A stretch of DNA of 64,000 nucleotides from a filamentous cyanobacterium CCT1 (lineage in GTDB: Bacteria > Cyanobacteriota > Cyanobacteriia > Phormidesmidales > Phormidesmidaceae). The stretch spans positions 1 through 64,000 of the forward strand of contig PYER01000006.1 of the NCBI GenBank assembly GCA_003017855.1, read 5' to 3'. The notes beneath the pieces were generated by a model, which was not told the DNA's origin, made no database searches, and saw nothing but the letters and a program-made list of their open reading frames with translations. This document shows positions 20,329 through 36,627 of this stretch, piece by piece; the first letter of the stretch is position 1, and each line of letters begins with the position of its first letter. The position numbers and the translations under genes were made by a program.

Positions 20329-20904
20329 ATGGCGGTATTTGAGGGCACGTTAGTTTCCACCGGGTCTCCCCGGTTTGCCATCGTGCTGGGCCGATTTAAC
20401 GATTTAGTTACCGGCAAACTGCTGGAGGGCTGCCAGGACTGCCTCAAGCGCCACGGTATCGACGTTAATCCCGAGGGTACCCAGGTGGACTACGCTTGGG
20501 TACCAGGTAGTTTTGAGATTCCGCTGGTGGCGCGACAGCTAGCGCTCAGCGGGCGCTACAACGCCGTTATTTGCCTAGGGGCCGTCATACGAGGCGCTAC
20601 GCCTCACTTTGATTATGTGGCGGCAGAAGTGGCCAAGGGTGTAGCCGCCGCCGGGTTTCAAACCGGGGTGCCCATCATCTTTGGGGTACTCACGACCGAT
20701 ACCCTGCAGCAGGCTCTTGAGCGGGCTGGCATTAAAGCCAACCACGGTTGGGATTACGCCATGAGCGCCCTAGAAATGGCTAGCCTGATGGGGCAGATTC
20801 ACTCGGTGATGGGCAGTGGTGACAGTAATGGCACAGCCCGCCTGGGGCCTGGGGTTACCGTATCGGCTCAGCCGGTTATTGCTCCGGATGCTAGCTCGGT
20901 CTAA
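20329..20904 (+). CDS. ribH: 6,7-dimethyl-8-ribityllumazine synthase
   Basis: Condenses a ribityl-aminouracil with dihydroxybutanone phosphate in the penultimate step of riboflavin synthesis; forms cytosolic multimers. Signature segments are [10 protein letters not shown] (substrate-binding strand), [32 protein letters not shown] (with the catalytic His), [21 protein letters not shown] and [14 protein letters not shown]. The core ends near residue 160; the last 30 residues are a Gly/Ser/Val-rich tail not needed by the fold. It starts at ATG 20329. Confidence 0.95.
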
Positions 20905-20928
20905 GCCCAGAAAAATTTCAAGAAAATG

Positions 20929-20957
20929 TTGACATAGTCACAGTTTTTTGAGATTCT
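20929..20957 (+). promoter_or_regulatory. Candidate sigma-70-type promoter of tRNA-Gly
   Basis: A perfect -35 TTGACA at 20929-20934 is followed after 17 bp by GATTCT at 20952-20957, a weak -10. The tRNA begins 48 bp later. No other gene is close enough to use it. Confidence 0.5.
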
Positions 20958-21005
20958 AGACAAGGTCAAAACCAGCGAACGAGCACCTCCGACTCTGGTT
21001 TTTAT

Positions 21006-21077
21006 GCGGGTATAGCTCAGTGGTAGAGCGTCACCTTGCCAAGGTGAATGTCGCGCGTTCGAATCGCGTTACCCGCT
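21006..21077 (+). tRNA. tRNA-Gly, anticodon GCC
   Basis: Full cloverleaf: acceptor GCGGGTA pairs with TACCCGC, D arm GCTCAGTGGTAGAGC, anticodon arm TCACC-TTGCCAA-GGTGA with anticodon GCC, and T arm GCGCG-TTCGAAT-CGCGT (one G-T pair). The discriminator is T; CCA is not encoded. Confidence 0.96.
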
Positions 21078-21198
21078 TATCTCTCGATACGGGAATCTGA
21101 GGTTTTAGATTCCTTCTCCAATAGCTCTCTGGAGCTGTTCTTGTCATAGCTTTATGGAGCTAGGCCAGAATGGTAGAAAGTTAGCTCAGTGAATCCCC

Positions 21199-21816
21199 AT
21201 GATTGAAGCTGCGGAGGAAACTGCTATAAGCAGTCTCCAGGCTCTAGCCTCCTACGGGACCATTGCAACCCGGGAGACCTGGGAGGCATTAAAAACCCCT
21301 GAGAACGTTCCTATATTCCTGAGCAGCTTGATCAAGTTCTCCTTAGGTCCTACTTTGGCCTTCCTATGGGGTCGTAAGGCTTTCAACTATCAAGAGAACT
21401 TTAGAAGAGAGCAGGAGGCCGAAAAGGAGGCCAAGGAAGCTGAGGCTTTTCGCCTAATGCTAGAGCTAGAGATGAAACAGAACTTAGATACGCTTGAGAA
21501 GTTAAAAGAAGAGCTAACAAGCCTCATTAAGAAAACTCAGGGATCCGACCCTATTCATAGGAGCCTAAAACCTGAACTGATCGCACCCCCCTCCTGTGAA
21601 CGGGCTGTTTACAGTGCAGTGGCCGGAAAACTGCCAGGAATATATAAAACCCAGCCGGAAAAACTATCGAAGGTGGTTAAGCATTATCAATATTTAACGT
21701 CTTTTTCAATACGCTATGAGACTGAAATCCAGCCTAAACATGAAATGAGGCTTGCCGCTGCTCAAGCATTAGTTCAAGATGTTGGCCGGTTCCTAAAGAT
21801 AAACCAGAAAACTTGA
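21199..21816 (+). CDS. Unknown protein with one hydrophobic segment and a coiled coil
   Basis: A 205-residue protein. Around residues 37-58 (VPIFLSSLIKFSLGPTLAFLWG) lies a possible membrane helix. Residues 65-120 are strongly charged and heptad-like (NFRREQEAEKEAKEAEAFRL, LDTLEKLKEELTSLIKK), a likely coiled coil. The C-terminal 80 residues are helical and basic. It starts at ATG 21199, 120 bp past tRNA-Gly. Base composition is more AT-rich than the neighbouring housekeeping genes, consistent with an acquired segment beside a tRNA. I recognise no family. Confidence 0.6.
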   Translation: MIEAAEETAISSLQALASYGTIATRETWEALKTPENVPIFLSSLIKFSLGPTLAFLWGRKAFNYQENFRREQEAEKEAKEAEAFRLMLELEMKQNLDTLEKLKEELTSLIKKTQGSDPIHRSLKPELIAPPSCERAVYSAVAGKLPGIYKTQPEKLSKVVKHYQYLTSFSIRYETEIQPKHEMRLAAAQALVQDVGRFLKINQKT

Positions 21817-21924
21817 GGCTCTCTTTTTTCCCCCTAGAGGTTAACCCCGGGGCTACAATGGGACCCATAAGAAAGGCCCAAGGACACCCCCCGGGCCATA
21901 TCGTTCTGTTAGCTATCAGATCCC

Positions 21925-22173
21925 CTATTGACCCTCTTGGAGCCTGCTAGCTTCGGGAGGGTTTTCAGTGGGGATGGGTGGCAGTTCCCGGCCTTCCAGG
22001 GTATAAGCCCCGGCTAGGACGGTTGCTAGGCCAGCTAGGACCCACGGTAGCCCTCTAAGAAAACCACTAGCGATCGCCTTCTCCAGCAAGGCCTCCGAGA
22101 TCCTGATAGTGATCTCTAGACCTACGGGATCCTCTACAGGGTCCGGTTTTGGCTTAGAAAGCCATTTCAGCAT
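21925..22173 (-). CDS. Unknown small membrane protein
   Basis: An 82-residue ORF starting at ATG 22173 with a near-perfect ribosome site, AAGGAGGTCAAA, directly upstream. The N-terminus is charged (MLKWLSKPKPDPVEDP), then comes an amphipathic part (LEITIRISEALLEKAIASGF) and a hydrophobic helix LRGLPWVLAGLATVLAGAY; the C-terminus is Pro/Glu-rich. It converges with the 205-residue gene, with GC-rich inverted repeats such as GGCCC...GGGCC near 21876-21898 between them. No function can be given. Confidence 0.6.
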   Translation of the reverse strand: MLKWLSKPKPDPVEDPVGLEITIRISEALLEKAIASGFLRGLPWVLAGLATVLAGAYTLEGRELPPIPTENPPEASRLQEGQ

Positions 22174-22747
22174 TTTGACCTCCTTAGGAGTTGTCCCAGG
22201 AGACCCAGTAGGAACTAACTACACTGGCGTTCTTGCAGACAGGGTTGTTGAGGTCAGCACCGATAGCCCCCACTGAGCAACTCAGTGGGCGTGTAGAGTC
22301 CTTGGGGACTCGGGGGTTATCAAGTGCTGAACATGCGCGCTAGAGGACGGCAGAGGGGAGATGTTCAGCTATGTATGGACCACGTACACATCCGTCCTGT
22401 CGAGAAATGCCTTAATGTTGAATAAGGTAGCACATCTCTCTACATCTGCCCACTCTCCCCCAGGTTTCTCCACCTAGAACACTAGCTATAGGGGTAGGGG
22501 CTTCCTCAGGTGGACTTGTAAGGTGATCAGGGTTGTCACCTAGGCTCAAAGGCCACCCGATGACATCAATGACACTCAAGCAGTGTCATCATGGTAACCC
22601 TTGATGCATAAGGGTTGCAGCCATTTTGGAGTGGCGCGTCAGCGACATGTGGCGTTGCTCTAAAAATAGCCATTCCCTAGCCCCTCTGGGGCGGCTTCAC
22701 CAACGACTTCGCTCAGGGAATGGCCATGGCTATGTCTTCCCTAGTTA
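22174..22747. other. Non-coding region with a cluster of hairpins
   Basis: No convincing ORF in 574 bp, but at least five perfect inverted repeats. (1) CCCACTGAG 22269-22277 with 22281-22289, 3-nt loop. (2) GCTGAACAT 22326-22334 with 22361-22369. (3) ATGACACT 22569-22576 with 22582-22589, 5-nt loop. (4) AACCCTT 22596-22602 with 22610-22616. (5) GCCATTCCCT 22669-22678 with 22715-22724, enclosing the small hairpin GCCCC-TCT-GGGGC. This density suggests a structured RNA or mobile-element remnant rather than simple terminators. I do not match it to tmRNA, RNase P, SRP or 6S RNA. Confidence 0.5.
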
Positions 22748-24532
22748 TCAAAGTCCTGGACCGACACTGTTACCCATGGCCCTCAGCGGGCAGAACAGCG
22801 CCTCAGGGCGGTGCCCTTGCAGCCAGTAGGTTTCCATATCGCCTCGGCCTTTGACGGAGATATAGCCTCGCTTTTCGAGCCGGTAGTTGTCTTTGAGGCG
22901 CTCGTAGGTGGTGGCGGTAACTTGAATATGGCCCGGCTCGCTTGATGATTCCATGCGGCTGGCCACGTTAACGGCATCGCCCCAAAGGTCGTAGATAAAC
23001 TTTTTGGTGCCAATCACCCCGGCGACCACAACGCCCGTATTGATGCCAATTCGAATTTCAATTGGTTCTCCCAGCTCAGCCTGAAACGACGCCATCACCT
23101 GCTGCATGGCCAGGGCCATTTCGGCGATCGCTTCCGCGTGGTCTTCTTTGGGGGTGGGCAGCCCCGCCGCCACCATGTAGGCATCGCCGATGGTCTTAAT
23201 TTTTTCTAGCCCTAGCTGCTCCGCCAGGCTATCGAAAGCCGAAAAAATTCGGTTGAGCAAATCGACTAGCCGAATCGGCGACAGCCGGTTGGAAAGGCTG
23301 GTAAAGCCCACAATATCGGCAAATAAAATGGTCACTTCGTCGAAGTGTTGGGGAACAGAAGCCTTGGTCTGCATCAGCTCTCCGGCGATCGCAGCGGGCA
23401 GAATATTAAGCAGCAGCTGCTCGGCCTTTTGCTGCTCGGCGATCAGCTTTTCACGACTAATTTGCAGTTCGCCCAGCATATCGTTAATTTGATGACTGAG
23501 ATGGCTCAGCTCATCGGTGCCCTTTACCGAGGTTCGCTGGGTGAGATCATTAGAGCGGCCAATGTGCTGCACTTGCTGGCTGAGCCCTAGCAGCCGCCGC
23601 AAAATGACGCGATCGAGCAGCAGCAGCATGCCGCCAGTAAACACCAGGCACGACCCCAGCAGCGACCAGCCCAGGTAGTGGCGGCTAACCTGCCCCTGGT
23701 AGTAGATATCGCGGGGGAGCTTAACCTCCAGCAGCGCCTGGGGCTGGCCGTACACGTTGGGCCAGAGGGCATACCCGGCCAGGATATCGGCTGACTGAGT
23801 GCGCACCAGGGTAGGAAAGTTGGCTAGATCGGTCGCCTGACTGAGCGTCGCGGCAATGGGCTGCAGCGTCTCTGGTAGCTCACTCTCTGTTAGCGCATCT
23901 TCTTTAATGGGGTAGAGGCGCAGATCGAGGCGGGTGCGCAGCGCTAACGATTCGACTACATCTGGGCTTACGTAGCGCCCCATCAATAAAACCCCTCGGG
24001 CTGGACCAGTGGCATCGCTGCGCAAAATCGGTTCTACCACCACCAGCATGAGCTTGCCATCTACCGTCATCAATCCCTGGTGATGAGCGGCCAGGTGCTG
24101 AAACTGCATTAGCGGGCTATCGGGTGCAAGCTGCGGCGCCAGATCGGTCGGGAGGGATGAAAAAGCTCGATTTTCGAAGTCGTAGCTGGTGCCGTAGACG
24201 ATCGTTCCCTCGCGGTTCACAACGGCGACCAGATTGAGCTGCAGGCTTTCGAATGCGTACTTGCTCAGGTTCGACTCGACATAGCTAGGGTCGCGGTCTT
24301 GAACGAAGGTGTAGGTGTCATTCCAGGCGGCCCAGTCTTCGGTAAGACTTTGCAGTTGAGCCAGATCGCCTGCCAGCACTTCATCGACCCGCTGTAAGTT
24401 GCGCTGGGCGTCTTGCTGTTCTAGGCGACCGTAGCTGCGCTGCAAGATCACTGAAAAACTGCCGAACAAAATGGCCATCAGCCCCAGCAGGGGCAGGGTA
24501 GTCAAGAGTAATGTTTTGTGACGCAGATTCAT
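22748..24532 (-). CDS. CHASE4-HAMP adenylate cyclase
   Basis: A membrane class III nucleotide cyclase of about 594 residues. From ATG 24532 it starts MNLRHKTLLLTTLPLLGLMA, an N-terminal membrane helix; then an extracytoplasmic CHASE4-like sensor (LTEDWAAWNDTYTFVQDRD, NREGTIVYGTSYDFENR), a second helix, a HAMP linker (RLLGLSQQVQHIGRSNDLTQ) and the catalytic domain with TILFADIVGFTSLSN (metal Asp pair), EKIKTIGDAYM and YDLWGDAVNVASRM. The Lys in EKIK and Asp in YDLWG point to ATP rather than GTP. An upstream extension to 24718 is open but lacks sense, so the shorter start is preferred. The signal sensed is unknown. Confidence 0.9.
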   Translation of the reverse strand: MNLRHKTLLLTTLPLLGLMAILFGSFSVILQRSYGRLEQQDAQRNLQRVDEVLAGDLAQLQSLTEDWAAWNDTYTFVQDRDPSYVESNLSKYAFESLQLNLVAVVNREGTIVYGTSYDFENRAFSSLPTDLAPQLAPDSPLMQFQHLAAHHQGLMTVDGKLMLVVVEPILRSDATGPARGVLLMGRYVSPDVVESLALRTRLDLRLYPIKEDALTESELPETLQPIAATLSQATDLANFPTLVRTQSADILAGYALWPNVYGQPQALLEVKLPRDIYYQGQVSRHYLGWSLLGSCLVFTGGMLLLLDRVILRRLLGLSQQVQHIGRSNDLTQRTSVKGTDELSHLSHQINDMLGELQISREKLIAEQQKAEQLLLNILPAAIAGELMQTKASVPQHFDEVTILFADIVGFTSLSNRLSPIRLVDLLNRIFSAFDSLAEQLGLEKIKTIGDAYMVAAGLPTPKEDHAEAIAEMALAMQQVMASFQAELGEPIEIRIGINTGVVVAGVIGTKKFIYDLWGDAVNVASRMESSSEPGHIQVTATTYERLKDNYRLEKRGYISVKGRGDMETYWLQGHRPEALFCPLRAMGNSVGPGL

Positions 24533-35973: not shown

Positions 35974-36627
35974 AAAAATTGGCGAAAGACATGAATGTAC
36001 ACAGGACTGGGCGGCGCCAGCCTTCGTCGCGGCCTAGCGCTGGCGCTAGTGGACTGATTTGGGCTGCGGGGCCAGGCTAATCTTGGAATCGCAATTCTTC
36101 AGGGACGAACACTTGTCCCCAGGCGCAACCAGGCTACAGCCCTGGCTCAGGAGCCTCTACCGGGCGGTGCCGATGAACAACCAGCATTCGTGAATAGACA
36201 GCGGCGGCCAGAGCAGCCCTGCCGCAGGTGGTTGTGGCTACGCACAGCTAACCTATAGGAGGCTGAGTCAGCACCATGATCAAAGAAAGCCCTGAGCTAC
36301 AACACCCCAGGACAGGCAAGACTTTATAAGCAGTCATCTGTACCTCGCAGATGGAAAGAAAAATGAGCATCCATCGGCGGGCATTCTGACTGACACAATT
36401 TTGAACTTCGGTTTTGGATTTTGGTTTCACGCTCCGCCAAAATCTAAAATCCGAAATCTAAAATCGGCTCACAGCTGCGGGACAGTGGCAGATTTTCACT
36501 GCGCTTTCCCCGTTTCCTTTAGCGGCTGATCTCCGCTAAAACCGACAGAGTTGCATACTAGCACCTGAGCGGCAGGTCTACGTGCAGCCGGTCTAGATTC
36601 TTGACCTGCGGCAACAAATACCCAGCC
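35974..36627. other. Non-coding stretch with several hairpins
   Basis: A 654-bp stretch with no credible ORF. Inverted repeats include CTAGCGC-TG-GCGCTAG (36034-36049), GGGAC...GTCCC near 36103-36120, and TTTAGCGG...CCGCTAAA (36518-36540), which lies 88 bp past the 36628 gene stop and may be its terminator. I checked for a cobalamin riboswitch before DUF1636 and did not see the B12 box in the right orientation. Confidence 0.4.
36407..36455. repeat. AT-rich inverted repeat of the GATTTTGGATTTTGG type
   Basis: TTCGGTTTTGGATTTTGG (36407-36424) and CCAAAATCTAAAATCCGAA (36437-36455) are near-complementary, 12-nt loop. Similar TTTTGGATT/TTTTAGATT words occur near 26866-26886, 44941-44960 and 45062-45080, so this is a small dispersed repeat. 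Confidence 0.6.

Follow-up and report, generated by a model that had tools for sequence, protein, structure and literature searches.

A candidate structured RNA upstream of a small putative membrane-protein gene in an insert next to a cyanobacterial tRNA-Gly

In the filamentous cyanobacterium CCT1, the space between a tRNA-Gly gene and the cyclase gene that follows it holds two orphan genes and a non-coding stretch dense in hairpins, which raises the question of whether this is DNA that integrated at the tRNA, a structured RNA, or both. The locus lies in a window of 64,000 nucleotides (the whole stretch of DNA that was analysed, contig PYER01000006.1, positions 1 to 64,000), and the features discussed are collected in Table 1.

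Table 1. Positions of the features between tRNA-Gly and the cyclase gene, numbered from the start of the window.
Feature	Position	Strand	Remarks
tRNA-Gly (GCC)	21006-21077	+	left edge of the insert
ORF205	21199-21816	+	orphan
Terminator-like hairpin 3' of ORF82	21875-21897	-	10 pairs, TTTCTT tail
ORF82	21925-22173	-	small protein; orphan with an 84-residue relative in G009
Shine-Dalgarno (SD) CTCCTANGGAGG	22179-22190	-	strong; own complement directly upstream; found in both members
Structured RNA element upstream of ORF82	22174-22624	- (strand inferred)	from folding and conservation
Conserved RNA core	22258-22398	-	model R2, 151 bits
Helix P1	22262-22268 with 22315-22321	-	encloses P2 and P3
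Helix P2	22269-22289	-
Helix P3	22296-22311	-
Helix P4	22326-22334 with 22361-22369	-	8 pairs, invariant in both members
Helix P5	22345-22350 with 22392-22397	-	one pair longer in G009
Helix P6	22372-22375 with 22385-22388	-	4 pairs, invariant in both members
Dispersed hairpin repeat, outside the RNA	22625-22732	+	matches across the genome

The insert after tRNA-Gly

The stretch from ribH to tRNA-Gly was looked for in 60 genomes from the order and matched in 59; of the loci besides that of the window, the best 29 were inspected. In 15 of the 29 tRNA-Gly is followed by the cyclase gene within the 1.5 kb stretch, with a gap, taken from the end of the tRNA to the first similarity with the end of the cyclase gene, of 66-472 bp as against 1670 bp in the window. 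In a sixteenth locus (G008) the neighbour of tRNA-Gly is the gene that comes after the cyclase in the window, and there is no cyclase within 1.5 kb after tRNA-Gly in the remaining 13. The nearest relative (G016), with 93% identity over the query, has a gap of 357 bp. Neither ORF205 nor ORF82 is found by tblastn at any of the 29 related tRNA-Gly loci.

Comparison with these loci shows the 1.67 kb from tRNA-Gly to the cyclase to be an insert. The original prediction had described a foreign-looking patch whose gene order would not be expected in distant cyanobacteria, and indeed the insert is missing from all 29 related tRNA-Gly loci that were inspected and the order was not found elsewhere. There is a mild though genuine dip in G+C across it (0.46-0.54 in 500-base tiles over 21000-22749), against 0.51-0.57 in the tiles that directly precede it, 0.59-0.66 beyond those to the left and 0.52-0.61 in the cyclase gene. 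The spacer after tRNA-Gly would seem to be a variable spot, since the gap lengths differ and the sequence is hardly shared. By eye, the gaps after tRNA-Gly within the genus (L045-L060) have little sequence in common. A big near-perfect hairpin, GGTTCAAGGTGTACGG...CCGTACACCTTGAACC, was seen by eye in the homologous gap of G007 (L056).

The two orphan genes beside tRNA-Gly, one of them predicted to have a membrane segment and a coiled coil, bear out that description: ORF205 has one hydrophobic segment (residues 39-57) followed by a long predicted helix, and ORF82 also has one hydrophobic segment. There is no integrase among these gene-like frames or their family matches, as had been noted at the outset. 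The longest frame remaining between ORF82 and the end of the cyclase gene at 22748 has 67 codons.

The hairpin-dense stretch and the RNA element

In the 574 bp 5' of ORF82 (22174-22747), where five or more perfect inverted repeats had been seen, there are 7 perfect hairpins (stem of at least 7, loop of 3-40) against a mean of 1.25 in dinucleotide shuffles, with 0 of 300 shuffles reaching 7. Counting this stretch, 5 of the 635 equal-length tiles of the window reach that number. The other hairpin-dense 574-base tiles start at 36301, 36401, 37801 and 44501; a cobalamin riboswitch lies at 36359-36561 on the minus strand (53 bits), where the tiles from 36301 and 36401 are hairpin-dense too. On either strand, 22174-22750 folds more stably than shuffled sequences, with z of -2.76 on the plus and -3.44 on the minus strand.

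These hairpins have two origins. One is the dispersed repeat, which has 46 matching places in the genome, whole or partial and with the window's own counted, and which aligns with seven of its genome copies as one repeat family. The other is the structured element at 22174-22624. The suggestion that the hairpins are a structured RNA is therefore supported for most of the stretch, for which there is a conserved relative, and not for 22625-22732, which is a separate repeat. A blastn search with 22174-22624 found no relative in 63 genomes of the order, its own apart, a result that carries little weight because the G009 member was missed too.

That member was found through the protein. G009, a genome of the same genus, has an 84-residue relative of ORF82 (ORF84; E 5.1e-9, 42-43% identity over residues 1-81), and upstream of its gene is a stretch with the motifs of the window's element, the order and orientation of element and ORF being equal in the two. 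Among 388 genomes of the class searched, G009 is the one further genome with the pair of RNA and ORF82. A search at E<=0.05 gave matches of the ORF82 type in 27 of 376 genomes, and one with a two-row profile at E<=0.01 gave them in 9 of 388; the only convincing carriers are G000 and G009, the remaining matches having E of 7.7e-4 to 0.05. In L104 the weak match shares its place with a longer, 214-codon frame that it overlaps. R2, the covariance model built from both members of the RNA, gave a single match of 7.9 bits when run on 19 of the 20 loci with weak ORF82 matches (L087 being left out).

The genes of the two proteins agree at 44 first, 51 second and 30 third codon positions, each of 81. 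The NG86 method gives dN 0.63 and dS 1.61, and YN00 gives dN 0.78 and dS 0.84, a ratio near 0.93. The maximum 19-residue hydropathy is 1.50 in ORF82 and 1.89 in ORF84, the net charge of ORF82 is negative, and its predicted structure is of low confidence (pLDDT 63). For the two proteins there was no Pfam match above cut-off (for ORF84 only FANCI_HD1 came up, with a sub-threshold E of 0.015), none in PHROGs or PADLOC, one in NCBIfam at 0.22, far below cut-off, and none better than 0.4 among PDB sequences. No relatives were found in phage, plasmid and viral collections, the phage search having been made with ORF82 only.

On the minus strand, 87 of the 134 ungapped columns of the core are identical between the window and G009, and there are five invariant runs of 12, 14, 7, 9 and 11 nt, 53 nt in total. 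The two members score 211.5 and 151 bits with R2. Five other matches, at 18.6-22.3 bits, were reported in the 388 genomes under stricter filters with 7 candidates scored per genome, so that distant members may escape. In four of the five the alignment is confined to the variable loop region. The last, L096 of G305 (21.1 bits, with an E of 0.0096 in the one genome), spans the entire model; its first ~60 bases are core-like and the remainder overlaps a 106-codon frame. It may be a member, but was left out because an E of 0.0096 is expected by chance across 388 genomes.

The helices of the core would form a pseudoknot in both members, since P5 crosses P4. In the hand-fitted alignment, P5 of G009 gains an extra G-C pair through an insertion on each side, and of the pairs that the members share, 5 of 6 in P2 and 2 of 4 in P3 have changed at both bases and still pair. 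Two double changes in P5 in another alignment become one paired insertion once aligned by structure. In the shuffle test of the structure, 133 of 500 shuffles were equally good, and sliding the helix partners by +3 gave an equal number of two-sided changes, yet with just 50% of cells paired. Support from covariation is thin because the family has two members only. The consensus fold of the hand-fitted alignment has z of -5.24 and -5.12, values discounted as proof because the structure itself had guided that alignment. The RNA family of two members is thus presented as a candidate, from sequence comparison and folding.

At gathering thresholds, Rfam gives tRNA and the cobalamin riboswitch over the whole window and nothing else; at E<=10 over 21050-22800 and the G009 element (L078 1440-2200), there are only matches far below gathering. 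The RNA region had no relatives, as DNA or as a pattern, in the phage, plasmid and viral collections. A match of 34 bases to a Vibrio phage (E 0.06) was put down to chance. In the open-licence literature on cyanobacterial or Nodosilinea RNAs, small membrane proteins and type I toxins, no title or start of an abstract describes the element, and an RNA element of this kind with a tiny membrane-protein gene is apparently new to description.

Strand and possible role of the RNA

The minus strand is tentatively favoured for the RNA. This leaning is taken because the element stays before the start of the ORF, because the strong SD has its complement directly upstream in both members (CTCCTAAGGAGG, CTCCTACGGAGG), and because a terminator-like hairpin follows ORF82. 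Folding of the single sequences gives z of -3.02 on the minus against -2.47 on the plus strand for the window element (-3.64 against -2.22 in a repeat with 60 shuffles) and -2.27 against -1.18 for that of G009 (-2.91 against -2.15 in the repeat). Unfitted consensus folding, weakly to moderately better than that of shuffled columns, is better on the plus strand, both for the core (z of -1.82, against -1.11 on the minus) and for the whole element (-2.84 against -2.01). In P1, both species have one A-C mismatch when read on the minus strand, which the plus strand would turn into a G-U pair. These last results would suit a plus-strand RNA leading away from ORF82, such as a small-RNA regulator or an antitoxin with its target elsewhere. 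This is considered unlikely, given that single-sequence folding prefers the minus strand in both species and that the element stays upstream of the ORF start.

On the minus strand, the RNA would most likely serve the ORF82 mRNA as its long leader. Within the ribosome-binding site (RBS), the GGAGG has an unpaired probability of 0.01-0.02 in G009, where it is paired, and of 0.22-0.27 in the window, where it is partly paired. The accessibility of the RBS of ORF82 in the window is 0.36, which is not unusual against a mean of 0.46 for 41 other ORFs of the window; in G009 it is 0.19, below the minimum of 0.24 among those 41 ORFs. Five control ORFs with an SD core have a mean of 0.26.

The reading put forward here, with somewhat less than even confidence, is that of an RNA-gated membrane protein, in which the pseudoknotted leader controls translation of ORF82. 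The fold of the leader would tie up the ribosome-binding site beside its own complement, and the pseudoknot upstream would be a control element, either a ribosome standby site or the binding site of a regulator, that times synthesis of the membrane protein. This anatomy has parallels in Proteobacteria. In the tisB mRNA, a pseudoknot and a distant standby site are reported to serve a sequestered RBS, the product being a small membrane toxin (PMC7708055). In that of timP, which likewise encodes a small membrane toxin behind a sequestered RBS, a pseudoknot is reported as required for translation (PMC11228461). The type I toxin-antitoxin pairs tisB/istR-1 and timP/timR, as described there (PMC7708055, PMC11228461), thus resemble this locus, with its putative small membrane protein and a predicted pseudoknotted leader before an RBS that would be sequestered. 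The likeness is drawn from anatomy. The leader here is ~450 nt, ORF82 is longer, and no antitoxin RNA was identified. Because the toxin mRNAs of tisB and timP reportedly work likewise, ORF82 may by analogy be a growth-halting membrane protein of this general kind. It is longer than the size given for type I toxins, which are put at 'typically under 60' residues in one account (PMC11264685).

A closer parallel in phylum is msoT1/msoA1 of Microcystis, a candidate type I toxin-antitoxin pair reported in 2025 as the first in cyanobacteria (PMC12390103). It is like the present pair, by its description, in joining a small protein with an RNA (PMC12390103), and differs in that the pair here is known without an antisense RNA.

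There are other large RNAs with which the element can be compared. The OLE RNA gene of Bacillota is reported frequently to adjoin that of a membrane partner, OapA, which resembles the CNNM domain (PMC11332333). The element could by the same token be a stand-alone RNA that forms a membrane-bound RNA-protein particle with the ORF82 protein. Like OLE as described there (PMC11332333), it is a large RNA with a strong fold and with invariant runs set in a variable frame, and it adjoins the same small membrane-protein gene in both genomes. The locus differs in phylum and in its family of only two members. Against the particle, where OapA is CNNM-like ORF82 has a single hydrophobic segment and no CNNM or other Pfam match. 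Nor is there an Rfam match above chance, OLE itself giving none across the window at the gathering threshold, nor any at E<=10 in 21050-22800 and L078 1440-2200. A separate promoter or terminator for the RNA is likewise lacking beyond chance: promoter-like sites are at chance level only in the regions of both genomes, terminator-like sites number 3 in that of the window against 2.1 expected in shuffles, and none is flagged in that of G009. Such a particle is rather improbable.

The OLE, GOLLD and ROOL families are in Rfam, and GOLLD and ROOL RNAs occur near tRNA genes. These last two are like the present element in being large folded RNAs, and differ in that there is no Rfam match here and no tRNA on the contig of G009.

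The invariant and partly unpaired runs in a compact, pseudoknotted core before an SD are also what a ligand-sensing leader might have, in which case ORF82 would be a small stress or transporter-associated membrane protein and not a toxin. Ligand riboswitches are widespread, whereas this element is found before one orphan gene only and in 2 of 388 genomes, which makes a riboswitch-like role rather improbable.

If the RNA-gated reading is correct, the interest of the locus lies in its compactness. Few large structured RNAs are tied to one membrane-protein gene and those few are poorly understood; a compact pair with a defined pseudoknot that can be broken would allow the direct question of whether RNA folding gates a cyanobacterial membrane protein.

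Mobility of the pair and distribution of ORF205

In G009, the pair of RNA and ORF is flanked by two other genes on a contig of 8.2 kb in which a tRNA scan of the full length found no tRNA. The tRNA-Gly site of the same genome (L054) is empty, with a gap of 308 bp. The pair is thus present in two distinct genomic places, since the G009 copy sits elsewhere while the tRNA-Gly site of that genome is empty. ORF205 has no match in G009 and for this reason is placed outside the unit of RNA and ORF82. The two orphan genes appear, from this distribution, to occur independently of each other.

The insert would then include a transferable two-part cassette, composed of a structured RNA of ~450 nt with a pseudoknotted core and then ORF82 on the minus strand. 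That such cassettes form a hitherto unrecognised cyanobacterial class, with a tiny membrane protein and a large RNA that holds a pseudoknot working as one device, be it an OLE-like particle or an RNA-gated toxin, and moving without an integrase of its own, is a speculative proposal and on balance a doubtful one.

It was suggested originally that the tRNA might be the site of integration, with a repeat of its 3' end to be sought downstream, and this part of the prediction was not supported. The last 20 bases of tRNA-Gly have no second copy in the 64-kb window at <=3 mismatches, and the sole other match in the whole genome (3 mismatches) is within another tRNA gene (C393:971-1043). No direct repeats of at least 12 bases are present in 20900-23000, a test that leaves room for att repeats of lesser length or greater divergence. 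A site-specific integration event at the tRNA was rejected, the insert being without an integrase or, within these limits, an att-like repeat and the G009 pair being on a tRNA-free contig.

The position of the insert at a tRNA, its sporadic content and the dispersed repeat at one end could also be read as decaying mobile DNA, in which the hairpins would be DNA-level signals, such as ends or origins, of a small element holding the two orphan genes. No integrase, att-like repeat or terminal repeat was found, and a conserved core with paired changes, together with third codon positions that are the most variable, is unlike decay. This reading is considered very improbable.

ORF205 itself is a separate, sporadic orphan. 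Profile searches, with the window's genome counted, place its family in 6 of the 63 genomes from the order and in 9 of the 388 from the class, a scattered distribution. The predicted structure is that of a long helical protein (pLDDT 74), with nothing at E<=0.001 in fold searches of PDB and BFVD. In searches with the single protein or with a seven-member family, the Pfam matches were below cut-off (ANTH at 0.0083 for the window protein, PaREP1 at 0.0023 for one relative), and the best values elsewhere were 0.074 in PHROGs (an Rz-like spanin), 0.058 in NCBIfam, 0.0089 in PADLOC (one member) and 0.012 among PDB sequences. There were no relatives in phage, plasmid and viral collections.

A preference of ORF205 for the neighbourhood of tRNA genes is possible. 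In the stretch read, the loci in G015, G026, G008, G279 and G245 have no tRNA, and nor has one of the pair in G086, the second G086 locus having a tRNA ~4 kb off. G058 (L025 4240-6799) has a tandem pair, of which the closer copy is ~1 kb from tRNA-Asp, a 131-codon frame lying in between, and in G084 (L024 2264-3133) 26 bp separate the end of the relative from the tRNA-Val 3' end. Upstream of the relative in G015 (L014 3980-4110), a unit of ~23 bases was seen by eye to recur in several tandem copies that are nearly identical.
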